Source of the DNA: Zygnema cylindricum
Taxonomy: Eukaryota; Streptophyta; Zygnematophyceae; Zygnematales; Zygnemataceae
Length of the DNA: 64,000 bases
Direction of reading: 5' to 3'
Assembly (NCBI GenBank): GCA_037447655.1
Contig: JBBHKE010000790.1
Coordinates: 126,001-190,000, forward strand
Numbering within the stretch: position 1 is the first letter of the stretch; each line of letters begins with the position of its first letter. The position numbers were made by a program, and so were the translations under genes. The notes below the pieces were generated by a model. That model worked only from the letters and a program-made list of their open reading frames with translations. It had not been told where the DNA came from and ran no database searches. Positions 1 to 51,049 of this stretch are shown here, piece after piece.

Positions 1-1240
1 AACTCTATATCCTTTAACATCCTCATCATATCCTAATAAGTATTCCGGTTTTCCTTTATGATCTAGCTTCCAATTGGACCGATCAGTATCTAGACAAAAT
101 ACTTGACTGTCGAAACCTTTAAGTGAGATATGTCTGGTTTCCGGCCTGTCCATCTCTCATAAGGTGTTTGATCTTTTATAGCTGAAGTAAGAACTCTATT
201 TCTTGAGGTAATTAGCACAGTTCATTGCTTCTGCCCAAAACTTTTTTCCTATCTTTCTATCTGACAACATACTTCTAGCACTATCACTTGGTGTTCTATT
301 TAATCTCTCAGCTACCCCATTCTGTTCCGGATTTTCTAGAATTGTCTTTTGGTGTTGAACCCCATCTTCCCTCAGAAAATCCTCAAACTGGTTAGAAGTA
401 TAGTCTCCACCATTGTCACTCCTTACTCTCTTGATTGGAGTTTCATGGAGTTTTTCGCTCCACGCTTTATATTGTCTAAAACAATCCTGAGCTTCTGACT
501 TGTTTTTCAAAAAATACACCCGGGAATCCCGAGACTAATCATCAGTTATAGTCATCGTAAATCTCTTCCCCCCTGGTGAGGGCACTTTAGCCGGTCCCCA
601 AATATCTGTGTGTACTAGATCTAAATTTTTTCTCCCTTATAAGTAACTTATTTAGGAAAGGGTAATCTGTGTGCTTTACCTTGAGCACATCCACTACAAT
701 CACTTATATCATCACTCTCACTGAACTGAATCCCTTCCACCACTCCCATCTTTTTTATCTCTCTTAACTTATCTAGATTCACATGCCTAAGCCTCTTATG
801 CCACATCATAATATCATGAACACCAGCATAATAAAGTTTCTTCGTTTCATTACTTAAAATCAGCCTAAACATCCCATGGCTACCTTTCTCAGCAATAAAA
901 TAGACATCCTCCACAAAACTAGCAGTAAAAACTACTTCCCTAGTGCTAGTAAAAAAACCCTTATCATCTTATATTGATGTAGAGATAAGATTTTTGTTCA
1001 GCTCCGGAATAAACAATACATCGGAGGATGTTAATATGGATGTCTTTCCTTCTACTAACACTTTCAAATCTACCGATCCTACAAGAGTAGTGGTGACTAT
1101 CCTCCCATCCCTTAACTCTATCTCTACGATGGGAATCTTTCTTATCTTAGTGAACAGGTGCCTATCCTTACACATGTGCATGGAGGCACCTGAATCTATG
1201 ATCTAGCCTGCTTCACCTTTCAATCCACCGTAAGCACATT
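1..1240 (-). pseudogene. Copia A protease and integrase, decayed
   Basis: This is the pol part that cleaves the polyprotein and integrates cDNA. The protease signature DSGAS-MHMC is at about 1180-1205, directly after an in-frame TAG where family members have Trp. The integrase zinc domain follows at 648-914: the WHKRLRH and CSGCAQGK segments give the HHCC pattern. The catalytic core at 196-519 shows RSDNGGDYTS and PEQNGVAERLNR, covering the second Asp and the Glu. The reading frame is split by several stops and shifts, for example around 540-640. Copia Pol is normally one frame fused to gag, so this copy cannot make it. Assignment is by close similarity to C and F in this window. Confidence 0.85.
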
Positions 1241-2344
1241 TCTGCCTTCGTGGAATTTTGACCTCATTTTTCGCCTCCAACTCCTCATCCAAGAGGAGCT
1301 CATCGTCCTCGTCCTCGGATTCCGCCTCAAGTACCTGTGTGACAAGGGCCTTTTTCTTTCCTCTCGGGGTACTACCGGTCTGCCCCTCCTTTAGTCGAAG
1401 CTCGGTTAGCTTAGTGCACTCTGCCATATAGTGCCCCGGTTTCTTACAAAAATGACATAAACCTTTGGGAGCCCTTGGTTCGAACTCGTCGGCCTGTTTT
1501 TTCTGCTCCCTACCCCTATAGTTTCCGACCGCTTTTCGGGAATCCCTGTTCCTCCAATCAGTCGCTGTTGCCAAGGCTTGGCCACTCTTTCCTCCCCTTC
1601 GGATCTCAATTGTATTCTCTTGAACGAGAATCATCCCTACCACTGAGTTCCATATCCACCTTGAGTCAGGCAAGTCCTGCACACGGTAAACTATGTTCAC
1701 GAACTCATCAGGTAACTTCATCAGTAAACAGTTAACCTTTTCTTTTTCACTAAAATCTTTTCCCGCACTCTGTAGCTCCATGAAGAGTGTAGCAAGCTCA
1801 TTGCAAAAATCCAACATGTTTCCCCCTTTGTATACATACTCCTTAACTTTCTGATCAGCCAACTGTTGTTGCTGAATCGTACCACTTCGGTATTGCTGAA
1901 TCTTTCCTGGTGAATCTGGTTCCTCCAAAACCCTGGAGGAATTCGAAGACTTGATGGACGGCGTAGGATGAAGTGCTTTGCCGTCATATTGTTGAAGTCC
2001 CAGGTTTCAGTATCATTCTCCTTGTTCCTCGGAATAGGTGACATGAATGTCGAACCAGTTGCTATTGGTGTGGTCGTCTCTTTCTCCTTTCTTTTGTCCA
2101 CCACCTCTCCTTCTTTTGTTTCCTCCGTTGAAGGTGGATCCTCTTTCCTGGTGAATCTGGTTCCTCCAAACCCTGGAGGAATTCGAAGACTTGATGGACG
2201 CCCCAACTGTCCACTCACTATCCCCCTAAACCTTTTTTCGCATAGAGCTCCTATCATCATACTTTCCCAGTATATGAAGCCAGTTCCATTAAAGATTGGT
2301 ACCCTAGCGGGTGGGCCCATAACCTGAAACTCTGAGACCTCCAT
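1241..2344 (-). pseudogene. Copia A gag with an internal patch duplication
   Basis: This encodes the capsid/nucleocapsid precursor. The frame opens at 2344 inside the LTR, crosses the primer site, and reaches the family motif VPIFNGTGFIYWES. A CCHC zinc knuckle (CHFCKKPGHYMAEC) lies near 1410-1455 and an acidic linker (SEDEDDELLLDEEL) follows. A segment of about 56 bases is present twice, at about 1905-1961 and 2140-2196. The second copy replaces the stretch that family members use for the middle of capsid, and the frame is lost there. This is consistent with template switching during reverse transcription. Non-functional. Confidence 0.85.
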
Positions 2345-3383
2345 AAGTCATCAGAGTAGACAACTTCCAAGAAGCCTCTAGGATAATCTTGACCATTTTG
2401 TGTTTTAGCAAAAATAACTGCCACCCTGGTAGACAAAAACCCTGAACACTTGTACTTTTGTGAAGGCAAGACTCCCTTGAGTCGATAGCATAAAGAATCT
2501 CTGAATTTGCTCCCCTGAGAAGTAAGTTATGGAGGGTCAAAGTTGACCTTTTGTACAGAAGCTCTCTGGGAGAGAGGGTCCTATCTCCTAACTTTTCTAA
2601 GTCCTATCTCTCTCACAGACTCTATCTACTGATGTACGGAACCAATCATAATACAGTTCCGTATGCAAAAGTACAGTTGCCGGTGTACTTTAGGTACGTA
2701 CATTGTACGACATGGCCTAAATGTCGACACATGTCATATCCGGATTCGGTGTCATGATCTCCGGAGATTCCACGATCCAATGTAATTTCGCCACGTGTCA
2801 TCCGATGTGGCGATGGCCACAAACCGCCGAAATCTTCTTCCGCGATCTTGGCGCTAATTCCGGCCGTCCGATTAAATCAGGATTTAATCGTAGCCGTAAT
2901 AAATACTTGCGCGGCATTCGTTTCAATTAAGAAATAAATGCGCGGTATTGATTTTCTGTCCGTACCGTAATCCGTACTTTACACATTACGGGATCTATGT
3001 ATCCCGTAATAAATTACAGCTAAATGAATAATCCTACGCATACATGTTAAAATAAATATCAAACTATATACTACGTAACACTAGTCATAGACTTAACGGC
3101 TAAGGCTACCGGCTATCTGCTGTCTGCCGGCCGGTAGGTACAGGGATCAAATCTTGCGGCCAACACATATATTTTAGATAAATTATCCCTTTAACTAATA
3201 TAAATTTCCCGTAAACCTCTGGATAGCCTAGGTAGCCATGGCTCTAGCTCCCTCTCCAATTTCTCAGTGACTGCGACAAGTTTGAGAGTTTGGAGAGAGA
3301 AGTTAGAGGTAGACTGCCTTGGCTTCTTTCTATATTTCTATTTAGACCTAGAAAATACTAAAAATGTACCATTAATTTCTACA
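2325..3383 (-). repeat. 5' LTR of Copia A
   Basis: This 1,059-bp LTR has TG/CA ends on the minus strand (TGTAGAAATT at 3383, ending TTTCA at 2325). The primer site GGTTATGGGCCCAC abuts it at 2311-2324. It contains a CACGTG G-box near 2791 and an antisense tRNA-like module near 3088-3164. It aligns by eye over its length with the 1,047-bp LTRs of Copia F. Confidence 0.9.
3088..3164 (+). other. tRNA-like module in LTR A (antisense to the element)
   Basis: The plus strand shows a box A/D-arm-like run ACTTAACGGCTAAGGC, then about 50 bases later a box B/T-arm-like GGGATCAAATCTTG. The LTR is transcribed from the minus strand, so the module is antisense. Equivalent modules occur at matching places in all LTR families here except G. 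It is not a functional tRNA gene: there is no convincing acceptor stem. Confidence 0.55.
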
Positions 3384-3805
3384 TACTGCCTCAACCAAAC
3401 ATTTGCCGTCTCGTCTAATAAATCGATCTGGAAAGGGGTTCTTTTGTAGATGCCAACGTCGGTGTGTAACCAAGAGAACACCTATTTGTTCTCCTCCAAC
3501 ACGTTGGAGAGTCGGTCCTTTTGCTGAGGGTTTAACTGGTCCCTTAAGGTCTAATCCATCTTCCCGGGTTCCACCGCTGCCCATGCCTCCGAAGGTCTAC
3601 CCTAGCGGGAGATATCAAATTTCAACCCTACCTTTGGGTATACTTTCCCTCCTCTTTTCAAAATGCTGCTGCTAACAATTTCCGCTAAGCTGTGCCTTTT
3701 CGAGCCTCCGCTCCCCCCCACTAAGGAAATCCTTGAATTGGGTGAAATGTTGGGACTGGAAAATTTTGATAACAAAATTTGTCTCCTTGCCTCCCTCCCC
3801 CCCTC
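3384..3805 (-). pseudogene. R: segment after the methyltransferase, unrecognised
   Basis: This is minus-strand sequence continuing R past methyltransferase motif X up to the Copia A insertion. A 70-residue open stretch (3372-3584) has a Gly/Arg-rich start and a Pro/Lys-rich middle. I see no RT, RNase H or integrase motif. It may be the linker towards RT. Frame assignment is uncertain. Confidence 0.35.
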
Positions 3806-4990
3806 AAACTACAAGTTCGCCTGTACTGCTAACAACTGTGGAGCTTCAAGGTAGCTAGCCCTTGACTGAGGAGTGTGTAGGCCAAAAAAGGCAAGAGAAT
3901 GTTTAAACACCCATGTGATTGCATTGATATCCATGCTCTGTCCGAGTAAGCTGCACCTCTGGAGGTCTGAAATACTTGGTGCTGCCGTGGTGGCACATTG
4001 GAATCCCATTGGTTTTTCTCATTCTTCTACCGTTGGTGTTGTCCAAAATCCACTCTTGATGTCGAATATCATTCCGGCTGCTCCCTTCTGATACGCATGG
4101 CTATTGGGGAAGGAAACTAAGGTTGGCAATGCTTGTCGTGGTGCTCTTGGTTTGTTGCACCGCAAGAACGAAAGATGATCAACCTTGGTCACTGGAGTGG
4201 CCATCCGCCCTGGCCCTAGAAATTGTTGCAGAGTAATATGGGGATATGTTTTGTGGTTTTGTAAGAGCTGATTTAGGACTGACAGAGGTATCTGATTGGT
4301 CCAGTAAGCCCGAACTCTATGAGCCCTGGATCCGAGTTGCGCTGCATCGAAAACGAGTGAAGCCCCTAGAATCTGCTTAACTTGATTCTAGCTATTGGCG
4401 ACCTGTTTTCTTTTATCATCTCCAGGGTAAACATTTTCCAAAACGTACCCCATTGGTGTGTCTTGGGACAACTGGAGCCATGAAATCACTTTGATCATCT
4501 AGAAGAAGGTTCGACTTCGGCTATCCTGATGCCCCTCGCCTTTCCCTGCTAGAGAGTATCCTTGACACAGCCATCCTGCTATTACCAGTTCTACTCGCTC
4601 CAGCATAGCTCAATGGGGTTCTATGATATTGTCTACATTTTGAGGAAGGCTTCAGTGAGATTTGCAAATGGCAGATATGGGAATTTGTAGGGGAGACATT
4701 TGGTGAAGCTTTTGTAGTCGGTGTTCGCTGACTGCCCGAACATTGGGGGAGATTTTTACACCCACATAAGATTCCACTTTATACCCTGCTTTCAATACAA
4801 CTTCAAGGTTCGAGCTAATTCCAGAGAATAGTGATAGTATCCAGAGTCTTGAATCCGGAATTGATAATGACACCACTTGTCGATGGAATTTTTGATTCTC
4901 GGGTGGAACCTCTGAAGATTTTTGACCGAAGCTTTTTCTCCTTGGCAAAAGTAGCAACAAAAGACTGGTCCACTTCCCGCCGAAGTGTGG
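3806..4990 (-). pseudogene. R: C5 cytosine DNA methyltransferase, broken by in-frame stops
   Basis: The family methylates carbon 5 of cytosine in DNA using S-adenosylmethionine. One minus-strand frame carries the motifs in order. Motif I (LSLFSGIS) is at about 4817-4840, followed by an AGYKVESYVG stretch. Motif IV (WLCQGYSLAGKGEG) is at about 4535-4575, with the catalytic Cys codon at 4565-4567; the Pro before Cys is Leu here. Motif VI (ENV) is near 4430-4438 and motif VIII (QLGSRAHRVRAYW) near 4300-4341. A variable region and a C-terminal block follow (PTVEE, MGFQ, SLLGQSMDI; about 3890-4045), typical of motifs IX-X. Five in-frame stops (near 4652, 4610, 4504, 4394 and 4020) break it. At least the one before EKPMGF looks like CGA to TGA. 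It lies directly downstream of a retropepsin in the same element, so it is element-borne rather than a host gene fragment. Confidence 0.85.
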
Positions 4991-5067
4991 CTACCTATGA
5001 TAATCTACTCTGGTATCCCTCTTCCCACCGCTTGGAAATAGGGAATTGCTATATCACGTCTGCGATG

Positions 5068-5692
5068 TCAATAGCAATGGCAAGCAGTTATGATGGAGTG
5101 TAGGTGGCATAAACAGGAAAAGCATCCGGCTACGGGAGCATTAGTTTTCCTGCGATTCCATAAATCCAAGGGTACCACCACCTTGACCCCCTCCGGATCC
5201 TCAAGGTCGCGAACACTAAACTGCTCCTTCCACACACTTAAACCCATATTCAACCTCGTCTAGGTGGCCATCCCCAGTAGAATTTCAAACTGCTTACCTT
5301 CCACCACCAAGAAAGGAAGCTCAATTCGGACTTTTTGACCCGCGTCATCGAAGAACTCGATTAACATGGCTTTGATAATTAAGTGAACCGGCTGGTTCCC
5401 ACTGCTAACCATGCTCAGGTAGATGTTATTGGGGCAAATTTCTGGTTTGAGTTCCTTGGGCATTTGCTGCAGAGCCGAAATAGTAATTAGGTTTGGGAGT
5501 GCTCTGGTGTCGACTACTACATCCTGGTATTCGCCGTATCTGTTGAGTTTTAAATTTCCCGTCCGGTTGAGGATTAGAGCCACAGATAACGTCTTATAAT
5601 CCCTATCCATCATAGGGGTCTTTGGGTCTGATGACCAAAAGATTGACTTGGGCTGATCTGCTTGGTCTCTTTCCTCCCCTTTTGAGTGAATC
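5068..5692 (-). pseudogene. R: retropepsin-like aspartic protease and following linker
   Basis: This is the protease that would process R's polyprotein. The frame is open from the Copia B junction (5692) through 5260. The active-site region reads VVVDTRALPNLI, where retropepsins have D-[ST]-G-A; the Gly is Arg here (one G-to-A change). A later ILLGM matches the usual C-terminal hydrophobic-G motif. A stop at about 5258-5260 is followed by a stretch (5068-5253) with GLSVWKEQFSVRD, which plausibly links protease to methyltransferase. The altered catalytic triad and the stop make it inactive. Upstream the frame continues across the B insertion into 9760 onward. Confidence 0.75.
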
Positions 5693-6592
5693 TGTTGAAA
5701 AGAAGTAATTAATATTCACTAATTAATTTAGACTGTAGAGTGAAGAGAGAGAGATAGTCACCATGGCTGCGGCCATAGTCAGAAAGAAATAGGGAAACAG
5801 ACTGTCAGATTGATAGATTACCAAAATGCTGCCTTTAGCAGCATTTGAACCTGGGTTTACGAATTTCTATGTAGACGTATGCCTTATCCACTTAGGCGTT
5901 AGCGAAGCGATGCACATATATGGTTAGGTAATTAGTTAAAGTGTTATAGAAACGTCACTTTGACTTAAACATACCAAAATTGACGAAACGACATCTATAG
6001 TCAAACGGCGCTCGCAAACGCGAATTTAACCGTGTGAAATATATGATCGGACGGCCGTCGTCGCCCCCTCCAAACCCAAATGAATCTTCTGTGGATTCCA
6101 GATAGCACAGTGCGCTTTTCCACGTGGCAACACATCATTGGACGCCAGGAAAGATGGGAGGAGGAACGATGGCTCCTAAGTTGACAAAGGTCAACCACAA
6201 GACCATGTTGTACAATGGCGGTACAAGAAGTACAATCAGCCACTCTAGCTTCTTGTACTATAAAATATTTTGATTGGCCTAGGGTAGAGTAGTAGGTAGT
6301 TGTGAGTAGGAGTTAAGGGACTTAGCGTATTTGAGGCACCTCTCTACAGGTGACCTTTTGTGTTTTTACGCCTTCTTTGGCCAACCAAAACTTACTGCTC
6401 AGGGGAGCAAATTCAGTGATTCTTTTTGCGTTTGACTCAGGGGAGTCTTCCCCTCATAGGGGTGAGGATGGTCGGAATTTATGTGTGCCTGGGCGGCACT
6501 TATTGAGTGAGAAAGTGAAAGGGGAAAATAATATCCTAGAGTCTTTATATAGGCTGCTAATTTTGTGGGTTAATGGAGACCACAGAATTTCA
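5693..6592 (+). repeat. 5' LTR of Copia B
   Basis: This 900-bp LTR begins TGTTGAAAAG and ends TTTCA; the primer site (CGTTATGGGCCCACC, one mismatch to the family) starts at 6593. It holds an antisense tRNA-like module (5838-5905), a CCACGTGG G-box (6120-6127), a CCAAT-like TGATTGGCC (6272-6280), and a leader hairpin array with AGGG loops (about 6398-6505). The gag ATG (6573) lies inside the LTR. Confidence 0.9.
5838..5905 (-). other. tRNA-like module in LTR B (antisense)
   Basis: On the minus strand a D-arm-like GCCTAAGTGGATAAGGC (5881-5897) is followed 46 bases later by CCAGGTTCAAATGC, a box B-like T-arm. The D-arm resembles eukaryotic tRNA-Arg (CTAATGGATAAGGC). The copy in the 3' LTR is at about 9031-9097. 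Confidence 0.6.
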
Positions 6593-8070
6593 CGTTATGG
6601 GCCCACCCTCTAGGGTGCCCATATTTAATGGATCTGAATTTCTTTATTGGGAAATGATGATGGAGGGAGAACGTTTTGAGAAGCACCTACGGGGCATAGT
6701 GTCCGGGCAAATTCGATGTCCACCTCCACCTGGATTTGGAGGAACACGGTTTTTTTGGCGCCTCCACCACCACAGTCACCATCACAAACGATGACAAGGA
6801 AAGGGAGGAGATAATCATGGAAGGAGAAAAGGGATGAGGTACTTCTCGAGGGACTCCATTGTCAACGACGATATTGGCAACAGCACAAACAGCAATGGTG
6901 ATAAAGAGTCAGAGCGAATGGTCAGAATATGAAAAATGGAACTATAAGGACAAGTAAGCTACTAATTCTCAAAAGTGTAGTGAAAGGTATTGCCATTCCG
7001 TTTATGCATGTTAAATGTTCCTCTCAGATTTGGGTATCTCTTGTAAAGAAATATAAGAGTGGGTCATTGCAGCAACAACAGCTGGCAAAAAACAAGATTT
7101 CAACGTATATTTACAAAAGAGGAAGTATGAATGATTATTGCAATGATTTAGGAGCATTACTTGGAGAACTAGAGAGTGCAGGTAACTCATGGTCAAGGAG
7201 ACAAAGAGTTTAATAAATTGATAATGAAACTACCAGAAGAGTATGAGAATATCATTAATCGGTTGCAGGATCTAGGTGATAGCAATTGGAATTGGGATGA
7301 TACAATGGGGATGATTATAGTGAAAGAGAGTACCATAGAACTTAGGAGAGGAAGTCCGAGTGTTCAAGCATTGGCTGCAACATCTGATAGGCGAAAGCGT
7401 GATGTGGAAAAGGGAAAGGATCCCTATCAAAACTTTAGAGGAAGAGGACAAGGAGGTGGCAAATTTGATCGACAAGGGAGAGGAGCTCCTCGAGGTGGAC
7501 TATGTCACTTCTGCAAGAAACTAGGACATTATATGGCAGAGTGTCTGAAGCTTGCACAACTCCGACTGAAAGATGAACAAGGTTCCTTAAGAGATGGAGG
7601 AAAGAAATAGGCTTTTCTAACTCAAGTTCATGACAAGGAACAAGATGAAGTAACGGAACCGGAAGAGGAGCTTGAGGAGCTTCTTCTTAAATCAAAAACC
7701 ACTAAGAAGCATGCAGACATTCTACGGAGACAAAAGTGTGCTTTTGGAGCTAGTGGTGACTAGCGGAAGCATGATGAGAGTAAGAAAGAAAAAGATATTC
7801 CTTATCGGAATTTTGGTGGAAAGAGAGGAAGAGGAAAAAAAAGAGGTGATTCGAAAGGAGGGGTTTGCTTCTTTTGTAGGGAACTGGGTCACTATATGGC
7901 GGAATATCCTTGTTTGGAAGAAATTAGAAGTTGGAATGTGAATGAAGAGGAAGAAAGGGAAGAAGAGAAACAGGATGAAGATATTTTGGAGCTTCTCTAT
8001 ATCGGTAGTATGGAGAAGAGAGAAAAGCACATAGAAATTCCACAAAAGCAACAGTGTGCTTTTGGAGGAT
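6573..8070 (+). pseudogene. Copia B gag with a duplicated zinc-knuckle module
   Basis: Gag starts at the ATG in the LTR (6573), runs through the primer site (VMGPPSRVPIFNG) and stops early near 6790; capsid-like sequence resumes at 6929-7213 and 7176-7610 in shifted frames. The first CCHC knuckle (CHFCKKLGHYMAEC) is at 7503-7544. After an acidic linker and the family hallmark RRQKCAFG (about 7728) the module repeats: a second knuckle (CFFCRELGHYMAEY, last Cys replaced by Tyr) is at 7866-7907, followed by another acidic stretch and PQKQQCAFGG (about 8040-8070). Related elements here have a single module. Charged residues are very enriched in 7896-8340. Confidence 0.75.
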
Positions 8071-8369
8071 TAAGGGAGGTAAAGAGAAAACAGGTACTTG
8101 AAAAAGGTAAAAATAATGAGGATATTTTCATAGATATTCTGGTGACAGAAAACTGGTTGAAAGAGGAGACTTCAACGGATTCTATAGAAAGGGGAGAAGG
8201 AAATCTAGAAGGAGCTTCAAAGTATAGGGGAGAAGAAGAATATCTAATGAAAGGTTTATGGGAGGAGAATATTTTTTTGGGAATCAAAATTGAAAGTGAA
8301 AGTGGAAAGAATTCCATGGGAGAGAGTGAGGGAAGTTCAAAAAATGAGGTGATTATCATGTACAAATAT

Positions 8370-8740
8370 AAGATTACGAAAGATGTAGATTTTATGAGGA
8401 ACTTAGTGGGGACTCGTGATTTAAAGATAAATTTGGGGGGTAATGGATTTGACATCACTAATGGGAGTGATGCCATTTATGAAGGTATGCTTGTAAAAGG
8501 GTTAATATGTGGGTATGTGTTGTAAGTCTGGGATGGGACTGGCTTTTTGAAATGCAAGTGGCAATTTGGATTTTGCTCGGATGAAAAAGGAATGAGGTGG
8601 ATAAAATCCTTGCTCCAAAAGTCCAGATTTATGAAAAATGGCATGCAAAATAAAATGTGTGATGCAATTATTATTTCCGTTCATCTGATACACTGTTTCA
8701 AATACACAGGTATTCACTTAAGGTTTTATGAGGGGAAAAG
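8370..8740 (+). pseudogene. Copia B RNase H remnant
   Basis: The 3' part of the open stretch 7896-8525 ends with a degenerate RNase H start (NLVGTRDLKINLGG, then SDAIYEG). The following segment (8540-8740) holds WIKSLLQKSRFMKNGMQ, equivalent to the C-terminal RNase H region of C and F. Key acidic residues around the DEDD core are missing or shifted. Everything between gag and this point has been deleted relative to a full Copia element. Confidence 0.65.
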
Positions 8741-8885
8741 GAAAAAAAGAAAAAGGAAAAAGAAAAAAATATATATAACTGTGTTTTGTTATTAAGTGTG
8801 AGTTGAAAGAAAAGTAGACTAGAAGATAAAGGGAGTGTTAAAATGTGTGGACTTAAATTAAAAGTTGACTAAGAATTAAGGGGAG

Positions 8886-9754
8886 TGTTTAAAAGAAATA
8901 ATTAATATTCACTTATTAATTTAGACTCTAGAGTGAAGAGAGAGAGAGAGTCACCATGGCTACCGCCATAGTCAAAAAGAAATAGGGAAACAGACATACA
9001 GATTGATAGATTACCAAAATGCTGCCTTTAGCAGCATTTGAACATGGGTCTACGGATTTCTATGTAGACGTATGCCTTATCCACTTAGGCGTTAACGAAA
9101 CGATACACGTATATGGTTTGGTAATTAATTTAAGTGTTATACAAACGTCACTTTGACTTAAACAGACAAAAATTCGCAGACGCAAATCTAACCGTGTAAA
9201 ATATATGATCAAAAAGCCGTCGTCGCCCCCGCCAAACCCGAATGAATATTCGGAGGCTTTCAGACAGCGCGGCGCGCTTTGCCACGTGGCGACACATCAT
9301 TGGACGCTAACAAAGATGGGAGGAGGAACGATGGCTCCCAAGTTGACAAGTGTCAACCAGAAGGCCATGATGTACAATGGCCGTACAAGAAGTACAATCG
9401 GCCACTATAGCTTCTTGTACTATACACTCTTTTGATTGGCCTAGGGTAAAGTAAAATATAGTTCTGAGTATGAGTTAAGGGACTTAGCGTATTTGAGGCG
9501 CCTCTCTCCAGGTCACCTTTTGTTTTTATAGGCCATCTTTGGCCAACCATAACTAACTACTCAGGGGAGCAAATTCAGTGAATCTTTTTGCGTTTAACTC
9601 AGGGGAGTCTTGTCCTCACAGGGGTGAGGGTTGTCATAATATTTGTGTGCTTAGGCAGCACTTATTGAGTGAGAAAGTGAAAGGGGCAAATATTATCCTT
9701 TTGGCATTACATAGGCTGCTAACTTTGTGGGTTAATGGAGACCATAGATTTTCA
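8886..9754 (+). repeat. 3' LTR of Copia B
   Basis: This 869-bp copy of the 5' LTR begins TGTTTAAAAG and ends TTTTCA, followed by target duplication GAATC (9755-9759). Several per cent divergence from the 5' LTR is visible by eye, so the insertion is not recent. A tRNA-like module is at about 9031-9097. Confidence 0.9.
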
Positions 9755-11188
9755 GAATCTCCTGTTCGAGGGCTTGTATGAGAATTTTTTCTAGCAAGTC
9801 ATGGTAAGAGGCCAGTGTTTTCACGTGAGTGAGGGCGTAGGGTATGAGATTCCTTACTAACATCACTGTCGGTTTGGAGGAAGGAGGTTGAGTTTTTAGC
9901 GACAAAATAGGGGAACCTGGTTACTCCGTTTTTTCTTGCTCCCCCCACCCTTGCTTCCTCACTTTCATTGTCGAATTCCGGCTCAAGGGGCGTTTTTGGT
10001 GTGTTATCCTATAGGCGTTAAGCCAAATATTGTTCAAACCAGTCTTGATTTATTCGTTTTTCCTCCTCTTCCGCCTGCTTTTCCATCTCCCTTTGCTTAG
10101 TTGTCTTCTAATTCTCTAATCTGGAAGGCAATTTCTTTACAGCCAGTGGAGGTAGAATTCTGGGCTTGAATCCAAGACCTGTTTTGTCGTTCAGAATAAC
10201 TACCCTGGGGGTGACTAACAACGGTCTAGTGGCCTTCTTGTTGTGATCTCCTTGAGCCAGTCTTTGCTTGTCTCTCCTTTGCTTCAATGTTGAGTTACGT
10301 AGTTGTCTGCGACTCTCTCCCACGCCGACATTCCAAGCTCCACAAAGGAAAGTTCGTGCGTGATGCGCTTTAGGAGGTTCCATATCCCACCCCATCACAT
10401 TCTTGTCTTCGCTTGCCGCGGATTCCTATTCAAACTCTGCCAGCTTCTGTAGTAGTTCTTGTTTTCTCCGGTGGAGTTTTTTAGCGGTTATCAAAGTAGG
10501 AGTCCGAGAGGGCAATCTTAAACGGAAGGCTGCCAATTCTCCAGCCATTGCGGCCAGTTGTTGGCTCTGTTGTTGGATAATAATCTCCGGGGTGAGTCTT
10601 CCTTGACCTAGTGTATGTCGTTTTGGTTCTTCCGTGGTGCGATGTCCCCAAAGGTAAAGAAGCTGGAGAGGGAGAGGGTTTACTCTAGTTTTACCTTCGC
10701 TGGTAAACAATGCATATTGCATCATCTCCTTCGCGACCCCATTCTTTTGAAAACAATGTCCCTCCTTGTAACCCATGAAACAGCAAGCCTCACACGTAGA
10801 GCCCTTGGTGGTGTATTTAACCCTTAATTCATTGGAGATTTGCGCATCATCGAATTTTGGAAGTTTGATTTGTCGGCTTGTAAAATTTTTGCAGTTTCGA
10901 ACAGAAAGTCGGACGGTAAATGTCTTTGTTCCCTAGTGTTTTGTTTTCCGATCCCCCTCATTGTTTCCTTTCATGCTGCTTGTAGGTCCTTTTTGCTCTC
11001 TCCTTTTCCCATCCTTTTTGCTTGAGGGCCGATTCTGGTTTGAGCTTTCGGGGGCACCGCTTCCATCCATGACATGTTTGTTGACGCTTCAAACAGTTAT
11101 ATAAGAAGACGCGGTCATTGATCCCCATGGAGGGTTTGGATCCGCTATCCACCACTTATTTCTCCTTAAGCTTGCGCAAAGCTAGAAG
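9755..11188 (-). pseudogene. R: Cys-rich and coiled-coil gag segment upstream of the protease
   Basis: This minus-strand block of R lies between the solo LTR and Copia B. From its 5' end: a basic stretch with two Cys (CLKRQQTCHGWKRC, within 10958-11155); a Cys/His-rich segment (CEACCFMGYKEGHC, about 10750-10795); a Gln/Leu-rich, probably coiled-coil part (IIIQQQSQQLAAM, LHRRKQELLQKLAEFE; 10426-10620); a basic region (10108-10398); and an EEEEKR stretch near 10060. It then runs into the protease frame at 5692 across Copia B. A nucleic-acid-binding gag role is inferred from composition and position only; the Cys pattern is not a canonical CCHC knuckle. Stops at about 10426 and 10108 interrupt it. 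Confidence 0.5.
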
Positions 11189-11290
11189 TCTTAAAAAACG
11201 TTATTTTCAAGGTCTAAATTTATTCTATGTGTTTGCTAGATGGTCTTTAAAAGTCATCCATACTTATCTTAGTCACTGGAAGACAGAGAT

Positions 11291-12452
11291 TGTTGAAAAG
11301 TGATATATTATATTCTATCTTTTTTTTTAAAGGATCCTGTAGCTCTCCCTTGTCGTAGTCAGTGAGAATCGATGGGCAACCATGGCTACCTCGACACATG
11401 AGACGATGAGAATTGACGGGCAATCATGGCTGCCTCAGGCAGATGAGACGATGGGCAAAAGACAAGGCTCATGCAAAAGATACGTTACCCATACAGAGTT
11501 TGATCTTGTAACCTCCGGGAGAAGGTCGTACAAATTGTTTAACGCCTTATCCGTTAGGTATTGATGAAACGTTACACGCAATGTATTTGGTAAGTATTTA
11601 AAATATAACAGAGCGACATATTCCTTGTAACGACTTACGTAACAAAACGAAACATGAAACGTGTGGTACCGCACGAAATGCAGTACCGCACGAAATAAAT
11701 GAAACAAATATTTGATTTCGACGGACGAAATTAAATGTCGCGATCGACGGCTCGCAAAGGAAGAAGGAATTTCAAACGGTCAACACGGAATGTTGACCGT
11801 CGAAATTCAACGGTCAACATTTATTCGGCGCGCCGTGATTTTCAACGGTCAACATTTGTTCGGCGCGTCGTCAGATCGAACTCGTGAAATTGATCGTCGG
11901 AAAAGAATGGATGGCACGCGTGAGTGCTGGTATGCCGGAACAATTATCTGGGTGGAGTTCGGCGAAATGGGAGGAAATGACACGTGGTATCATCTTATAG
12001 GATGCCGGAAGAGAAAAGGGACAGAATGACGTTGACCTATTAGCCACGTGGCAGAACGTGAGTGGTGCCGAATATGTTCGTACATAAAGTACGGCGGATA
12101 GTGTACTATGTATGTACAAAAATTAGAGTACTTTATTTTGATTGGTTCAGAGTAGCTATTAGTGAGGTTTTCAGGACTTAGACAAATTTTTAAAAAGTCC
12201 TCTCTCTCAGAGGCCATCTATATAAATATGTTGTTTTTGAACAGCCATAACTTAATGCTCGGGTGAGCAAATTCAGTGATTCTTTTTGCTGCGCACTCAA
12301 GGGAGTCCAGGCTACACAGGGGTATAGCCGGTCAGAGTTTTGGCGTGCCAGGGTGGCACTTATTCACTTCCAAAGTCAAAACTGCAGATATTATCTTAGA
12401 GGCTTCATATAAGCTGGACATTTTGTGGACCAATGGAGGTCACATAATTTTA
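11291..12452 (+). repeat. 5' LTR of Copia C
   Basis: This LTR begins TGTTGAAAAG and ends TTTTA (expected CA; the 3' copy keeps CA). The primer site GGTTATAGGCCCACC starts at 12453 with one change from the family sequence. A tRNA-like module is at about 11493-11562 (minus), G-boxes are near 11980 and 12043, a TATA-like CTATATAAATA is near 12218, and the leader hairpin array is at about 12258-12360. Confidence 0.93.
11776..11862 (+). promoter_or_regulatory. Clustered W-box-like repeats in LTR C
   Basis: The 11-mer AACGGTCAACA and its inverse (GTTGACCGT) recur at least four times, alternately oriented, interleaved with CGGCGCG motifs. TTGAC is the core of the plant WRKY-binding W-box. The 3' LTR (17318-17400) has a rearranged version of the cluster. 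A regulatory role is inferred, not shown. Confidence 0.45.
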
Positions 12453-12474
12453 GGTTATAGGCCCACCCTCTAGG

Positions 12475-13467
12475 GTGCCCATTTTTAATGGAACAAGGTT
12501 CATTTATTGGGAAACCATGATAAGGGGTGCACTGGTTGAAAAACGACTATGGGGCATTGTGAGTGGTCGTGTGCATCGGCCATCCGCAAAATTGGGAGTT
12601 CCACCAGGATTTGAAGGATCTCGATTCACAGAAGGATCTGCGAGGGCAGAGGTAGAAGAGGATGTTGGAGAAAGCATCGTGTCGGACATAGGGAAGGAGA
12701 AGGGGAAGGAGAAACTCACACCGATGCCTACTGTATCAGTTTTAGCAGCGGATGCTCAGAAAACCGAGGCTAATGATAGTGTAATCTGAGATTTCAACAA
12801 TACCGTGGCGACTCATTTTATTCTCGGGCGTCTCACCCAAGCAGTGGCTACACCTCATCTTCATGTGGACAAGGCGAACGAGTTGTGGGAGGCTCTTGTC
12901 AGCATTTACAAGAGTGGTACGATTCAAGAGCAGAAGCTAGTAGGTCAAAAGGTCCAAGCATATGTGTACAAAGGGGGAAAGATGCTAGATTTTTGTAATG
13001 ACTTTGCCGGGTTATTTATGGAGTTGGAGAGTGTAGGGAAAAGGGAGACCGAGAAAGAGAAGGTGAATACTTTGTTGATGAAACTCCCAGATGATTATGA
13101 AAACATTGTTAACAGGGTTCAGGACTTGCCAGATCATCGATGGATTTGGAACTCCGTTGTGGGAATGATTTTGGTTCGGGAAAACACAATTGAAATTCGG
13201 AGAGGAGGAAAGAGTGTTCAAGCGTTGGCTGTAGGAACTAACTGGGGAGATAAGGATTCCAAGAAACCTTATGGAAACTTTGGTGGAGGAGGAAGAGGAA
13301 ATCAATTGGAAAGATGTGGATCGAGGCCTCCGAAGGGACTTTGTCACTTTTGTAAGAAGCCGGGACATTACATGGCGGAGTGTACTAAACTGACAGAGCT
13401 GAGATTGAAGGAGGAACATGCCGGAAAACTAGCCACAAAGAAAAAGAAGGCATTTGTGGCAACATAA
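12475..13467 (+). pseudogene. Copia C gag
   Basis: This encodes the structural precursor. Family homology starts in the LTR at the ATG of ATGGAGGTC (12434), but an in-frame TAA and TAG follow before the primer site, so translation could only start at 12475 (MPIFNGTRFIYWE). Capsid-like sequence continues to 12789 (TGA in place of the conserved Trp of TWDFNN), then 12805-13467. Conserved blocks are YKGGKMLDFCNDFAGLFMEL and KLPDDYENIVNRVQDLP. The CCHC knuckle (CHFCKKPGHYMAEC) is at 13342-13383. A TAA at 13465 sits where relatives have Gln. The frame is otherwise intact. Confidence 0.85.
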
Positions 13468-15190
13468 GTCATCGGAGAGGACTCCGATGAGGACAATGGA
13501 GAACTCCTCCTCAACAAGGAGCTGGAGGTGAAAGGTGAGTCAGAGATTCCAAAGAGGCAAAAGTGTGCTTTCGGTGGAGTAAGAGAAGCTCCAAAAGGAG
13601 GATGGATTATTGATTCAGGAGCCTCTATGCATATGTGTAGAGAAAAACCATTGTTTACCAAAATGAGAAAGATCCCTACTGTAGAGATAGAGTACGGGGA
13701 TGGGAGAATAGTCACCACTAATTTAGTGGGATTTGTGGATCTGAGAGTCTTAGTTGATGGAAAGGCATCCATATTCACTTTCTCTGATGTTCTTTTTATC
13801 TTAGAGTTGAACAAGAATCTTATCTCTACGTCAGTCTTAGATGATAAGGGTTTTGAGACTAGTACTAAAAAGGGAGTCTTTGTTGCTAGCTATGAGGATG
13901 AAGTGTACTTCACAGCTAAAAAGGGTAGCCAAGGAATGTTTAGGTTGAATTTGAGTAATGGAAAGACGGGAGTTTACTATGCTGGTGTAAGTGATTTGAT
14001 GATGTGGCATAAAAGATTGAGACATGTGCATCTAGATAGATTGAAGGAAATGAAGAAAATGGGTGTAGTTGAGGGCATACATTTTGGAGATAATGAGACT
14101 TTGGATGATTGTAGTGGGTGTGCTCAAGGAAAAGCTCGCAGATTGCCTTTTTCAAAAGCCGCATCATATAAGGGTGAAAAGGTTTTAGATTTGGTCCACA
14201 CTGACATATGGGGACCGGCCAAAGTTCCATCAGTTGGAGGGAAAAGATTTATGCTTACTATCACTGATGATTGGTCTACATACTCTAGAGTATACTTCTT
14301 GAAAAACAAATCTGAGGCTTCGGCTTATTATAAGGAGTATAAAGCTTGGAGTGAAAAGCTTCATGAGACACCTATAAAGAGAGTGAGAAGTGATAATGGG
14401 GGGGAATTCACTTCTAATGAGTTTGAGGATTAGTTGAAAGAGGAAGGGGTTCAACACCAAAAGACTATCCCAAAGAATCCAGAACAAAATGGTGTAGCCG
14501 AGAGACTAAATCGGACATTAAGTGATAGTGTTCGTAGTATGTTGACAGATAAAAAGATAAGGAAAAGTTTTTGGGCAGAGGCTATAAATTCTGCTAACTA
14601 TCTCAAAAATAGAGTCCTTACCTCGGCCGTAAAAGGCCAAACACCTTATGAAAGATGGACCGGGAGAAAACCTCATATTTCACTCTTAAAGGTGTTTGGA
14701 AATCAAGTGTTTAGTCTAAACACAGAAAAATCTGATTGGAAGTTAGATGCTAGAGGAAAACCGGGATACTTGCTTGGGTATGATGAAAATGTAAAGGGGT
14801 ATAAAGTTTATGATCTCGGAAGAGAAGACATAATTCTAGTGAAACACTTGGTAGTTATGGACGAAGGAAAGTCCATAGATCCCTTTAAGTACACTAAACC
14901 GGTCAAAATTAGAATTGAATCAGAAATTGAGTTAGATTTAGATTCTTCTAACCGAACTCAGGTTCAGCCTGACCTTGCAGAGGAAGAGAAAAATCTGATC
15001 GAGAGTGATCCTCTCTTAGAGACACTACTTCCAATTCAACCCGAGGAAAGACAAGAAACAGATGATGAAAGACCGGAGATGGATTCCACGAATAGGGGAG
15101 AAGATGAAGTCGTTCGGAGAAATCCGAGATTACCCTCCATCCCAGCATCAGAGTTTGAGAGAGGAAGGAGAAGTAGCAAGAGACTTCAAG
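13468..15190 (+). pseudogene. Copia C protease and integrase
   Basis: After the gag stop the frame resumes at about 13471. An acidic linker and RRQ/KRQKCAFGG lead into the protease site IIDSGASMHMC (about 13606-13640). The integrase zinc domain has WHKRLRH (His pair) and CSGCAQGK (Cys pair). The catalytic core keeps HTDIWGP (first Asp, about 14200), RSDNGGEF (second Asp, about 14391-14412) and PEQNGVAERLNR (Glu, about 14480-14515). A TAG at 14431 falls between the second Asp and the Glu. The C-terminal part includes GYDENVKGYKVYDL and an acidic, variable stretch up to about 15150. Catalytic residues appear intact despite the stop. Confidence 0.88.
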
Positions 15191-16821
15191 AGAGGCAAGT
15201 GAACAACAAGGTAACTAAGATGTCACATTTTAGCGAACCCCAGACTTACTCACAGGCAATTAATAGTCCGGAAAGTAGTAGATGGTTGACAGCCATTAAT
15301 GATGAGATGGCTTCCATTATGGAATCAAACACATGGGAGTTGGTGGATTGTCCTCGGGACACAAAGCAGATAGGATGTTAGTGGGTTTTTAAGTTGAAAC
15401 TCAATCTCGATAACACCATTGAGCGATACAAAGCCAGATTAGTGGCAAAGGGGTTCACACAGAAGGAGGATATCAATTATGAGGAGACCTTCGCTCCGCT
15501 TGTTAGATTTCCCTCCGTCCGGATTCTACTTAGTTTAGCGGCAGCGGAAGACATGGAAGTGCACCAGATGGACATCAAAACCGATTTCTTACACGGGGAA
15601 TTAGAAGAAGAGATCTTCATGCAACAGCCGGAAGGATTTGTTGAAAAGGGAGAAGAAAGTAAGGTGTGCAGATTGATAAAGTCTCTTTGTGGACTAAAGC
15701 AAGCTCCACGTCAATGGAACAAGAAGTTGGACGAGTTTTTGACGAGTTTGGGATATATCCAAATAAGTTCTGATCATTCCATCTATCTATTTGAGGATGA
15801 GGAAGGTATAATTTTCATTGCTATCTATGTGGATGATTTGCTTGTTTTGAGTAAATCAATGGTGAAAATTAAAAGGGTGAAAAAGGATCTAAAGAGTAGA
15901 TTTGAAATGAAGGACTTGGGAGAGGCAAAGTACATTTTGGGAATTCAGATGGAAAGAGATAGAGAGAAGAGAACAATTAGACTAACTCAAAAGGAAGAAA
16001 TAGGGAATATGCTTGAAAAATTTCAGAGAGATAAAGCAAATAGTTGCACGACTCCCATGGACTTAAAGAAGGGTAATGAGGGGAGCTCAGAAGAGGGAGT
16101 CTTGATCTTGGATAATGAGATAGGACCTGAGGAAAGCAAGTTCATGCAAACTATTCCGTACAAACATGTTGTCGATAGTTTGATCTATTTTATGAACTAT
16201 ACTCGTTTTGATATTGCAGCAGCTGTGGGAGTATTAAGTAGGAGTCTGAATGATCCTAGGAAAAAAGATTGGGAAGCGGCCAAAAGGGTCATGCGGTACT
16301 TGATAGGAACAAAAGATTTGTGGTTGCATTTGGGAGGGGATAATACTGACATCACCACTTGGAGTGATGTCAGTTATGGGGATGCTCCGATGAGAAGGTG
16401 TACTTCTGGGTATGTGTTGTATGTTGGGAATGGGGCTTGCTGTTCGAGCAGCAAGCAACAAAAGGTGATTACTCAGTCCACCATGGAGGCTGAGTATATA
16501 GCCTCTTGTTCGGCTGTGAAAGTATTGATGTGGGTGAAATCTTTGCTTCAAGAACTAGGATACATGAAGAATGGAGTGCAAAAGATAGTTTGTGAGAATC
16601 AAGCTGCGATTGCAATTGCAGCAAATCCTAAGCATCACTTTAAAGCAAAGCATATGGATATTCGTTTGAGCTTTGTTAGAGAGAAAGTTGAGAATAAAAT
16701 AATTAGTTTGGAATATAGACCGGATGGAGAGATGGTAGCAGATATGATGACTAAGCCAGTTCCTTCTCCCAAATTAACATTTTGTAGGGAGAAGTGTGGA
16801 CTGAAGAAAAAGATAGACTAG
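15191..16821 (+). pseudogene. Copia C reverse transcriptase and RNase H
   Basis: RT begins near PQTYSQAINSPE and the TWELVD block; a TAG at 15379 sits where relatives have Lys (CKW). From 15394 to 16821 the frame is open for 475 codons. It shows the Copia RT motifs RYKARLVAKGFTQ, METHQMDIK-type MEVHQMDIKTDFLHGELEE, GLKQAPRQW and the catalytic IYVDDLLVLSKS (about 15820-15855). RNase H shows TWSDVSYGDA, QSTMEAEYIAS and KHMDIRLSFVREK; the usual CDNQ is CENQ, an Asp-to-Glu change in the catalytic set. It ends at TAG 16819 just before the purine tract. Pol III or host origin is excluded by motif order. Confidence 0.9.
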
Positions 16822-16834
16822 AAAATAAGGGGAG

Positions 16835-17996
16835 TGTTGAAAAGTGATATTTTATATTCTATCTTTTTTTTTAAAGGATCCTGTAGCTCTCACTTGTCGT
16901 AGTCAGTGAGAATCAATGGGCAACCATGGCTACCTAAGGCACATGAGACGATGAGAATTGACGGGCAATCATGGCTGCCTCAGGCAGATGAGACGATGGG
17001 CAAAAAACAAGGCTCATGCAAAAGATACGTTACCCATACAGAGTTTGATCCTGTAACCTCTGGGAGAAGGTCGTACAAATTGATTAACGCCTTATCCGTT
17101 AGGTATTGATGAAACGTTACACGCAATGTATTTGGTATGTATCTAAAATATAACAGAGCGACATATTCCTTGTAACGACTTACGTAACAAAACGAAAAAT
17201 GAAACGTGTGGTACCGCACGAAATGCAGTACCGCACGAAATAAATGAAACAAATATTTGATTTCGACATACGAAATTAAATGTCGCGATCGATAGCTTGC
17301 CATAGAAGAAGGAATTTCAAACGGTCAACACGGAATGTTGACCGTCGAAATTCAACGGTCAATACGGAATATTGACCGGTGATTTTCAACGGTCAACATT
17401 TGTTCGGCGCGTCGTCAAATCGAACGACGTGAAATTGATCGTCGGAAAAGAACGGATGGCACGCGTGAGTGCTGGTATGCCGGAACAATTATCTGGGTGC
17501 AGTTCGGCGAAATGGGAGGAAATGACACGTGGCATCATCTTATAGGATGCCGGAAGAGAAAAGGGACAGAATGACGTTGACCTATTAGCCACGTGGCAGA
17601 ACGTGAGTGGTGCCGAATATATTCGTACATAAAGTACGGCGGATAGTGTACTATGTATGTACAAAAATTAGAGTACTTTATTTTGATTGGTTCAGAGTAG
17701 CTATTAGTGAGGTTTTCAGGACTTAGACAAATTTTTAAAAAGTCCTCTCTTCAGAGGCCATCTGTATAAATATGTTGTCCTTGAACAGCCATAACTTAAT
17801 GCTCGGGTGAGCAAATTCAGTGATTCTTTTTGCTGCGGACTCAGAGGAGTCCAAGCTACACAGGGGTGTAGCCAGTCAGAGTTTTTGCGTGCCAAGGTGG
17901 CACTTATTCATTTTCAAAGTCAAAACTGCAAATATTATCCTAGAGGCTTCATATAAGCTGGACATTTTGTGGACCAATAGTGGTCACAAAATTTCA
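16835..17996 (+). repeat. 3' LTR of Copia C
   Basis: This 1,162-bp LTR is equal in length to the 5' copy and ends TTTCA followed by GAGAT. A tRNA-like module is at 17037-17106 (minus). The leader hairpin array at about 17802-17910 includes GCTC-GGGT-GAGC, GACTC-AGAG-GAGTC, GGCTACAC-AGGG-GTGTAGCC and GTGCC-AAGG-TGGCAC. Confidence 0.93.
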
Positions 17997-18045
17997 GAGA
18001 TAGCCATGGCTGCCGCCATAGTTTGAAAGAAATATGAACAAAATA

Positions 18046-18272
18046 TTCAACCTAGGTCTCTCACTGTATAATCCGTGCTGACAGCGTGCACCTTATCCCT
18101 TAGGTCTCATTGAAACGTTGGACTTACGTGGTCCGATTATTAATTAAATAGTTACAATATAACACTAAAATATAATAACAGAAGGCTTTTAACCAAAATG
18201 GTGGCATTGGGCGGATTTGAACCAGGGTCTGCAATTGCTGCATAGACTTAGGTCTTATCCACTAAGGCGATA
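18046..18272 (-). other. Two tandem tRNA-like modules in the R-family solo LTR (antisense)
   Basis: On the minus strand, one module (18201-18272) has CCTTAGTGGATAAGACC and then CCTGGTTCAAATCCGCC, a near-consensus box B. The second (18046-18112) has ACCTAAGGGATAAGGTGC and then ACCTAGGTTGAATA. The matching pair in R's own LTR is on the plus strand at about 22763-22826 and 22927-23000. Confidence 0.6.
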
Positions 18273-19087
18273 ATGAAACAATATACATTGGGATTAAAAC
18301 GTATTCAATCGTGGTACTAATCTACATACAAAATATATACGGATTACGAAACAAAACGACATTAGATTTAAACAGATGTAATCAAATGTCGACTTCGCGA
18401 TAGACGGCTCGCGGAGGAGCAAAAATTTCGGAGTAGTTTTTTAGTGGTTTGCTCAGTGTATGTTGGCACATGACACATGGTGAGAGGTGAATAGACAGGG
18501 TGTATTGCGCAGGGAGCAGCTTCGGCTCAGGAACTGACATGCGTCAGCGGAGTGGCCATGCCGAACTATGGCCGTACAAAAAGTACAGCGGTACGTGCCC
18601 CTTCTTGTACCTTACAGTCTTTTGATTAGATGGGTACACTTGTAGTAGGCTTAGAGAGGTAGATTAAGACTTATAATGTTTTTGGGTTTCAACCCCAATC
18701 CCAAAGAGCATTTGTACAAATAGGTCATCTTCGACCATTGATAACTTTATGCTCAATTTAGAAATTTCAATGATTCATTTTGCTACAGACTCAGGGAGTC
18801 CAGGCTACACAGGGGTGTAGTCGGTCATAGTTTTTGCCTGAGATGTTGGCTGCATTTCTAAGGAAATGTCAAAGTGAGGAATGTTATCCAAAACTCATAT
18901 TCTAACTTTGCATTCTGTGGAGGAAATCAGCACACTGAAATCTTATTTAACAGGGGTGAAGTTGTAATGGATTCTGATTATTAAGGGGTCAATCATTTGG
19001 GTTTATAAAAACTTGGAGACAACACTATCTAGATTAGCTTCTTTGGATCCGCGATTTCAATGTGGCAATAGAGCCCATAGAATTTCA

Positions 19088-19610
19088 TGAAATTCTGCCG
19101 ACTCTTCATTGTCAGGTGGCATTTCTCCTGCAAATCGTGCAAAGTTTCCGCTGGTTTTGCCTGTTACCACTTTTTCCCTGGCTTCACTATGAACAAAGTG
19201 GTCGTAAAGTTTCATAGCGACCAACGAAATTTCCTTAGCAGATGGATTGATATCATGGATGGCCTGGCTTGCAATCCAAATGTCGAGTGCAGTGTGCCCC
19301 GTGAGCCCAAAGGAAATCCAGACTGCGATAAAATATTTGGCTCCTCTAGATCCAGGAGCGTGTTGTTCGTCCCTTAGAACTGTCTCCACTGATGGGATAT
19401 AGAGTCGAGGTCTGGTCAAAGTCCTTTGTGGAATTGACGGTGGCGGGACGGAGACGGAGACTGCTGGGGCCTAGTAGGGAAAGGCGTCTGTCTCCTGGTT
19501 CGCCTCGTAGATGTCTCGTGAGGTAGAGTTCCGGCGCTAGAAGAGGGAGAACGTCAGTGTGGAGGTGAGTAGGCAGGGACGTTGTATTTGTATGGTAAAA
19601 CAAGTGGGTC
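19088..19610 (-). pseudogene. R: capsid-like gag segment
   Basis: The minus-strand frame 19057-19419 (120 residues) is mostly helical by composition: SVETVLRDEQHAPGSRGAKY, TALDIWIASQAIHDI, EISLVAMKLYDHFV. Upstream, 19420-19603 contains a Ser/Pro/Leu-rich stretch in another frame. Its place, between a basic disordered region and the Cys-rich gag segment, suggests the capsid part of R's gag. I do not recognise a named family from the sequence. Its C-terminal codons run into the solo LTR insertion, which truncates it. Confidence 0.45.
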
Positions 19611-23214: not shown

Positions 23215-23693
23215 CCACACTCAGGGAAAAATGTTCTACGTGAGAATCCTGCTAAATCCAAAACTGAGAGTCCCAATCTAAACTAATAAACTACTAAAAA
23301 TCCTGAACTGGCGTGGGAACACCACACTTTGACCTAGGGTAATTAATGGACATAAAGTTAGATGAACCTGAATTGGCGTTTTACCGACAGCTAACAACAA
23401 AATCTAAATGAAAATCCAAAAATTTACGTGGCCATCCACAATGTACCCCCCACGAGGGCCAATGTAAACAGGTCCTATGTAACGGAATCACAATCTGTGA
23501 GACGGAATAACTTTGTCGTCCGGCTTCTTTTAGGCGCGAAATAAAGTGTGTTCTACTCCGTTTAGAAAATATGGGAATTCCGTCCGGCTGAGTACACTCC
23601 TTCCTCTGTACTCCGATGATCGTACAGGGGAGAAAGGGCCCATAAATCCTTGGTGAGATAAACAAGTGTGTGTAAAGCACAAGAGCTTGACAC
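23215..23693. other. Orphan segment between R and the truncated LTR of E
   Basis: These 479 bp match neither the LTR of R nor the missing part of E's 3' LTR. A 100-codon minus-strand open stretch (23381-23680) has no recognisable motif. A short near-repeat (CCTGAACTGGCG / CCTGAATTGGCG) occurs at 23312 and 23369. It may be a remnant of another insertion that removed the U5 half of E's LTR. Confidence 0.4.
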
Positions 23694-43200: not shown

Positions 43201-43275
43201 TAAAGTACATACTTAAAAAAGTTAAATTTTAATAAGTTTTTATAAATTATAAATTTCGTCCATCATAACAGTTAC

Positions 43276-51046: not shown

Positions 51047-51049
51047 GAG

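Follow-up and report, generated by a model that had tools for sequence, protein, structure and literature searches.

A dead Ty3/Gypsy-type retrotransposon with a DNMT3-type methyltransferase in Zygnema cylindricum and its relatives with split direct repeats

The methyltransferase-bearing element and its insertions

The window, a stretch of 64,000 nucleotides on contig C584 of the Zygnema cylindricum genome, carries on its minus strand the remains of a retrotransposon, here called R, in which a retropepsin is followed by a cytosine-5 DNA methyltransferase. The minus frame 4990-3605, with stops read as X, matches the profile PF00145 (E 1.2e-5, 25.4 bits, cut-off 22), a check proposed in the preliminary description, and contains four motifs named there: LSLFSGIS, WLCQGYSLAGKG, ENV and SRAHRVRAYW. 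A Pfam scan of the two longest open pieces of this methyltransferase alone (122 and 151 aa) returned no family. In tblastn, the protein of a relative from the same genome (L012) matches window 4909-3383 with 57.5% identity over 525 aligned residues (hit group E 8.7e-166), and the L012 protease frame matches 5697-5233 (minus), the active-site half of a retropepsin, with 70.3% identity; these identities rule out a chance match as the source of the methyltransferase and protease signals. The retropepsin adjoins the methyltransferase, as first described, but it does not start at 5692: its first part lies at 9866-9756, separated from the rest by an insertion at about 5693-9754.

The relatives of R have split direct repeats: a repeat A opens the element (A1), a repeat B follows the internal region (B1), and A and B recur together at the end (A2, B2). 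By comparison with them, R extends from window position 23692 (TGTCAAGC) past the left edge of the window, by about 8.4 kb, to C584:117619 (Table 1). Its 3' repeats occupy C584:117619-119014; A2 lies past Copia sequence, at window coordinates -6986 to about -8107, and B2 ends in GCACGACA at -8381. Compared in two pieces, the A repeats of its 5' and 3' ends are 83.8% and 86.5% identical, a difference of 14-16%, and the flanks, AGAG and AGAC, are one base short of an exact 4-bp duplication. Positions 21955-23214, formerly read as marking the LTRs of R, proved to bound an insertion that splits the 5' repeat of R into halves at 23692-23214 and 21955 to about 21239. A search for the reverse transcriptase (RT) and integrase left of the window had been suggested; sequences of the L012 type for RT, RNase H, integrase and PHD finger (L012 residues 567-1525) gave no match in C584:118001-190000 at E 1e-4. 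Of the protein and repeat set seen in KnitGypsy-Dnmt3-type elements, R has the protease, the methyltransferase and the repeats, and its RT-to-PHD part was not found in C584:118001-190000. The single integrase-like match in that region, on the plus strand at 14101-14673, was rejected as the integrase of R: it sits in a Copia element.

R is an old, broken and dead Ty3/Gypsy-type element, split by nested insertions. Five stops interrupt its methyltransferase, motif IV has LC in place of the PC of relatives, and the protease has DTR where L012 has DTG. Because its frame is broken, active-site residues are changed and RT and integrase were not found, R itself can hardly act.

Elsewhere in the window, positions 43274-47590 and 47748-52086 hold one element in two copies, arranged head to head and 94.3% alike.

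Table 1. Features of R and of the insertions within it (window coordinates)
Feature	Position	Strand	Basis
5' repeat A1, first part, starting TGTCAAGC at 23692	23214..23692	-	A1/A2 of relative C112; 3' repeat of R, 83.8%
Insertion within A1	21956..23213		3' repeat of R matches to both edges without insert
5' repeat A1, second part	21239 (about)..21955	-	86.5% to 3' repeat of R
5' coding region, gag position (putative gag)	19754..20501	-	tblastn, first ORF of L012, 38-43%
5' coding region, continuation	19081..19338	-	62.8% to L012 ORF 2089-2856
Insert including Copia element, repeats 11288-12450 and 16832-17994 (94.9%)	11185..19092		gap in C112 match; self-comparison
Coding region, gag position to protease	9988..11184	-	tblastn and blastn to L012, C112
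Start of protease region	9756..9866	-	73% to L012 protease frame residues 33-69
Insert in protease; ends 5693-6592 and 8886-9754 85% alike	5693..9754		self-comparison; L012 match
Retropepsin	5233..5697	-	70.3% to L012 protease frame; DTR for DTG
DNMT3-type methyltransferase	3890..4846	-	PF00145 E 1.2e-5; tblastn; five stops; LC for PC
Linker from methyltransferase to RT start	3384..3889	-	L012 match stops at 3383
Copia sequence terminating R, extending left of the window	1..3383		self-comparison, repeat 2324-3383; L029

Relatives of R and the kind of methyltransferase

When the genome (352.8 Mb, 2689 contigs) was searched with PF00145, at least 123 matches came out: 123 of 782 candidate places were scored, all above the cut-off. 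Twenty loci were fetched at 10 kb; they do not represent all copies, since they were chosen mostly for long open frames. Two families, A and B, are distinguished, with methyltransferases about 42% identical to each other. In family A, a single 2395-aa frame of locus L009 encodes a PF00145 domain (E 2e-11), RVT_1, RNase H, an integrase and a PHD finger (E 1.5e-9). The zinc knuckle and protease matches of L009 stay below their cut-offs, with 16.6 of 20.8 and 16.7 of 24.3 bits. R belongs to family B, of which L011 (frame of 1520 aa) and L012 (1525 aa) present the order DNMT-RT-RNase H-integrase-PHD, with PHD scores of 17.5 and 21.5 bits, under the Pfam cut-off of 24; the protease of L012 lies in the preceding frame. 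The overall domain order in relatives is protease-DNMT3-RT-RNase H-integrase-PHD finger. A Gypsy-type RT, RNase H and DDE integrase share one frame with a Dnmt3-type domain in L009, L011 and L012, as in KnitGypsy-Dnmt3, and the nearest relative of the RT is Ty3 (E 3.1e-77). The other loci read are mostly broken into several frames. L013 (C544:147300-157299) has two family-B methyltransferase copies on the same strand within 10 kb, 66 to 72% alike to L012.

The search for intact copies suggested at the outset led to relatives with long open frames, up to 2395 aa, in the same genome. These bear out the earlier view of R as a degraded member of a DNMT-bearing retrotransposon lineage, and they place the methyltransferase where the capture had been placed, inside Pol and behind the protease. 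No methyltransferase standing as a host gene independent of the repeats was seen among the 123 scored of the 782 candidate places and the 20 chosen 10-kb loci.

The methyltransferase is DNMT3-type by kinship. Its nearest solved structures are DNMT3A chains (E 4.9e-13 for L012, 1.8e-10 for L009), and the catalytic Cys, ENV and AHR.R are conserved. For L012 the next structures are M.HhaI (2.3e-5) and DRM2 (0.002); for L009 the next family is HaeIII (0.005), with DRM2 absent from the list. DNMT1, CMT and DRM were rejected as nearest kin, DNMT3A being nearer and chains named DNMT1 or CMT being absent from the structures listed at E up to 1. In motif IV, family B has PCQ where family A has ECQ, with 27 matches in 28 loci (15 P, 12 E), counts that are not independent because some loci overlap. 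In the family-A loci L009, L014-L019 and L025-L027, Glu replaces the Pro that usually precedes the catalytic Cys, and both forms occur among metagenomic relatives.

With the L012 methyltransferase as query, 29 proteins were found. Two of those with organism names are from Marchantia polymorpha; the other names are Klebsormidium nitens and Closterium sp. NIES-53, and the Closterium match covers 30% of the query only. Nine aligned domains as query gave 230 proteins, and among the 120 listed are Dunaliella salina, Chlamydomonas eustigma and Scenedesmus sp. All organism names among the matches listed are of green algae or a liverwort, most rows being nameless. Pol occurs in two layouts: DNMT before RT (layout 1, 15 rows, eight from this genome) and DNMT behind RT-RNase H (layout 2, 23 rows), with 119 rows unclassifiable by domain position; a PHD finger stands behind the integrase in both. 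The methyltransferase tree (39 rows) has a 19-row clade (96/99) of all 13 layout-2 rows and six unclassified ones, and in the tree of RT-RNase H, which has 22 rows, a clade (99/98) unites the ten with layout 2. Since the same bipartition appears in both trees, enzyme and element have travelled together since before the split of the layouts. Among named rows, C. eustigma has layout 2, Dunaliella falls within the layout-2 clade and K. nitens has layout 1. Monophyly of layout 1 is neither resolved nor rejected (AU p 0.17). A single capture of the methyltransferase is likely, in trees with many deep forks open and both outgroups on long branches.

For the methyltransferase, 10 of 45 family-A pairs were usable, with a median dN/dS of 0.36, and 15 of 36 family-B pairs, with a median of 0.25; pairs too alike, saturated or too short were dropped, and the 25 of 81 usable pairs are mostly young. 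At dS 0.02-0.2, the family-A medians are 0.37 (methyltransferase), 0.33 (RT) and 0.38 (integrase), and those of family B are 0.25, 0.31 and 0.26 in the same order. The methyltransferase codons are under constraint, with purifying selection expressed in medians that do not fall below the 0.2 given in PMC5890265. Comparisons of R with L013 and L028 gave 0.18 and 0.19, from which it follows that the R lineage was constrained for most of its history. That the enzyme is a functionless passenger is very improbable: most copies read are broken to some degree, as a passenger might be, but the catalytic CQ is kept (27 motif matches of 28 loci), dN/dS is well under 1, and the methyltransferase is retained with RT across a deep tree.

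Several single proteins depart from the common plan. In the metagenomic P0024, a PHD finger (E 3.9e-9) and then a chromodomain (3.5e-12) follow the integrase of a DNMT-bearing Pol, at residues 1923-2043. The metagenomic P0026 (longest contig 495,863 bases) has a weak PF02086 match behind its PHD finger, at residues 1738-1770 (E 0.0028, below cut-off), and may, from its sequence, combine N6-adenine and cytosine DNA methyltransferases in one polyprotein. P0030 of Closterium sp. NIES-53 joins a Copia-type RT to gag, protease and a methyltransferase stretch; it is perhaps a gene model spanning two nested elements. On viral contigs, 80 loci found via the catalytic motif were kept (24 to 41% identity) and set aside as presumed ordinary viral methyltransferases.

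Split direct repeats and their junction

In C1344 the two copies of repeat A (931 bp) are 100% identical and those of repeat B (243 bp) 99.6%, in the arrangement A1-internal-B1-GC-A2-B2. The same order, with GC between B1 and A2, is found in all five family-A copies that are complete at both ends. TG..CA ends are likewise present in all five (start TGTCATGC, end GCACGACA), and four are flanked by exact 4-bp target duplications (TTGG, AAGG, CCCT and CCCC); the fifth copy, which has the most diverged repeats, has the flanks AAAG/AAGG. The junction pattern B-NN-A, with any two spacer bases, occurs at 230 places for family A and 199 for family B, and the reversed patterns used as controls occur at 0 and 0 places. 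Among the 100 of 230 family-A places listed, spacers counted by hand were GC 63, GT 16, AC 14, AT 2 and other 5; GT, AC and AT are transitions of GC.

In family B, C2216 shows B1-A2-B2 with spacer AC, and C1042 likewise with spacer GC. The copy at C1374:16400-34399 (L030, L011 and L031) stops after B1, without A2 and B2, between unlike flanks; it may have arisen when copies of B1 and B2 recombined. A whole family-B copy with both ends and a duplication was not seen among the copies read.

In all five complete family-A copies a run of G ends at most 2 bases from B1. A TGG primer-binding start directly behind A1 is absent from the same five (L009+L032 included), so that standard tRNA priming is unsupported. 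Handling as in DIRS, PAT and Ngaro elements, with otherwise-primed cDNA circularized on a B1-A2 splint and a Gypsy-type integrase replacing the tyrosine recombinase, is an unlikely though serious possibility. It would agree with the missing TGG and with a repeat order equal to that of PAT, Ngaro elements and VIPER (PMC6681497), and it would likewise end in an integrase-cut junction, but the poly-G within 2 bases of B1 in all five copies resembles the polypurine tract of LTR elements.

Proposed mechanism and comparison with known systems

We propose that the cDNA is made much as in LTR elements and that the poly-G tract before B1 is the polypurine tract, from which B-A would be the LTR in the replicative sense. 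Because the inserted ends lack the GC of the internal junction, this junction must be rebuilt each cycle. The cDNA would end up carrying the B-GC-A junction twice, in a 2-LTR circle or some other joined form. The integrase would then open one junction by cutting both strands at CA^GC, which would leave recessed, already processed CA ends with 2-nt overhangs, and would insert A1...B2. The cut would also restore the 2-nt GC that is absent from the inserted ends. Retroviral 3' processing leaves recessed CA ends with 2-nt overhangs as well. It is improbable that a linear cDNA spanning the whole of A1 through B2 is inserted directly, with the junction only a template-switch site that is never cut. 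Inserted copies running from TG to CA with a 4-bp duplication are what any linear precursor would give, yet the GC spacer (five of five copies, 63 of the 100 listed junctions that were counted) would go unexplained.

After integrase opening of the joined or circular cDNA at a B-NN-A-type junction, the methyltransferase from the same polyprotein would act on the cDNA or the fresh insertion, and the PHD finger would read a histone tail and steer the complex on chromatin, much as the chromodomain of chromoviruses does. The closest counterparts of the L009 PHD finger are those of PHF12, BAZ2B, Lid, WSTF and PHF21A, several of which read unmodified H3; its role as a chromatin reader is a guess. Alternatively, the methyltransferase might mainly silence or mark the chromatin round the insertion, to the benefit of both host and element, rather than protect the cDNA. 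Recruitment to nucleosomes by the PHD finger of the same polyprotein could serve such marking, and self-restraint is discussed in PMC5890265; by sequence analysis, however, marking is indistinguishable from cDNA methylation, and as the main function we regard it as distinctly unlikely. The joint account, in which R is a dead Ty3/Gypsy-type copy with DNMT3 and PHD in its Pol and the replication, integration, methylation and PHD steps run as proposed, we hold to be quite probable. More tentative, and to our judgement somewhat short of an even chance, is the wider idea that these elements, from chlorophytes to a liverwort, are built around a circle junction, a near-palindromic B-GC-A within the repeat that is cut by integrase, carried in the provirus and copied each cycle, and that they combine it with a DNMT3 writer and a PHD reader in one polyprotein. 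The split direct repeats would then represent a circle with two such junctions, opened at one.

Dnmt3-bearing Gypsy elements with DIRS-like repeats, KnitGypsy-Dnmt3, were described in Klebsormidium nitens (de Mendoza et al. 2018, PMC5890265), as a single streptophyte case, and DNMT3 in retrotransposons of streptophytes and dinoflagellates is mentioned in a 2025 survey (PMC12344493). The former proposes that the retrotransposon enzyme methylates its own cDNA; CG methylation is shown there for Symbiodinium enzymes, and the K. nitens enzyme had no activity in yeast, a test that the authors call inconclusive. KnitGypsy-Dnmt3 shares with the Zygnema elements a Dnmt3-type enzyme in Pol, an intronless Gypsy element, DIRS-like repeats and purifying selection, and the K. 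nitens protein P0022 shares the order DNMT-RT-RNase H-integrase. The PHD finger is a difference, the K. nitens protein being partial and ending before that place. As the defining features compared are present, the family is of the known KnitGypsy-Dnmt3 kind. Added to this kind are relatives in Marchantia, Closterium, Dunaliella and Chlamydomonas eustigma and two Pol layouts, which the DNMT and RT trees both separate. Further additions are the C-terminal PHD finger and the split direct repeats with TG..CA ends and 4-bp duplications. Some of these additions may already be contained in PMC5890265. The available text of that paper does not mention a target duplication or a GC junction, and its main text contains neither the word PHD nor the name Marchantia. 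Among the literature titles and abstract openings covered, none describes split-repeat Gypsy elements with an integrase, Marchantia DNMT elements or PHD in Gypsy.

SymbioDIRS-Dnmt3 of Symbiodinium also has a Dnmt3-type enzyme in one frame with RT (PMC5890265), but belongs to another element class with a tyrosine recombinase, whereas the Zygnema elements have a DDE integrase. Of the features of the DIRS order, the split direct repeats are present (all five complete family-A copies, and B1-A2-B2 in two family-B copies); in place of a tyrosine recombinase and no target duplication there are an rve integrase in three of three proteins and 4-bp duplications in four of five copies. Retroviral integration from a circle junction was claimed in 1984 and abandoned for a linear DNA precursor (PMC11054761), and cleavage of 2-LTR junctions has been reported for spumavirus integrase (PMC1180852). 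Common to both and to our proposal is an integrase acting on a palindromic two-end junction. In retroviruses, however, the linear form is the precursor, while the Zygnema junction is internal to the provirus, which has the same ends as the junction. This anatomy offers a sharp test of whether a DDE integrase works from a joined or circular precursor. Chromoviruses, which are Ty3/Gypsy elements with a chromodomain, likewise have a chromatin-reading module behind the integrase; in Zygnema elements this module is a PHD finger, and P0024 has PHD and chromodomain together.

In the usual arms race it is the host that methylates the parasite; a retroelement that carries a DNMT reverses these roles. 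With relatives in this genome, in a liverwort and in several green algae, the association looks old and durable. Gene catalogues may be distorted as well by element-borne PHD fingers: for Zygnema cf. cylindricum, a PHD class at least nine times larger than in relatives is reported (PMC9915684), an expansion that such elements could explain.
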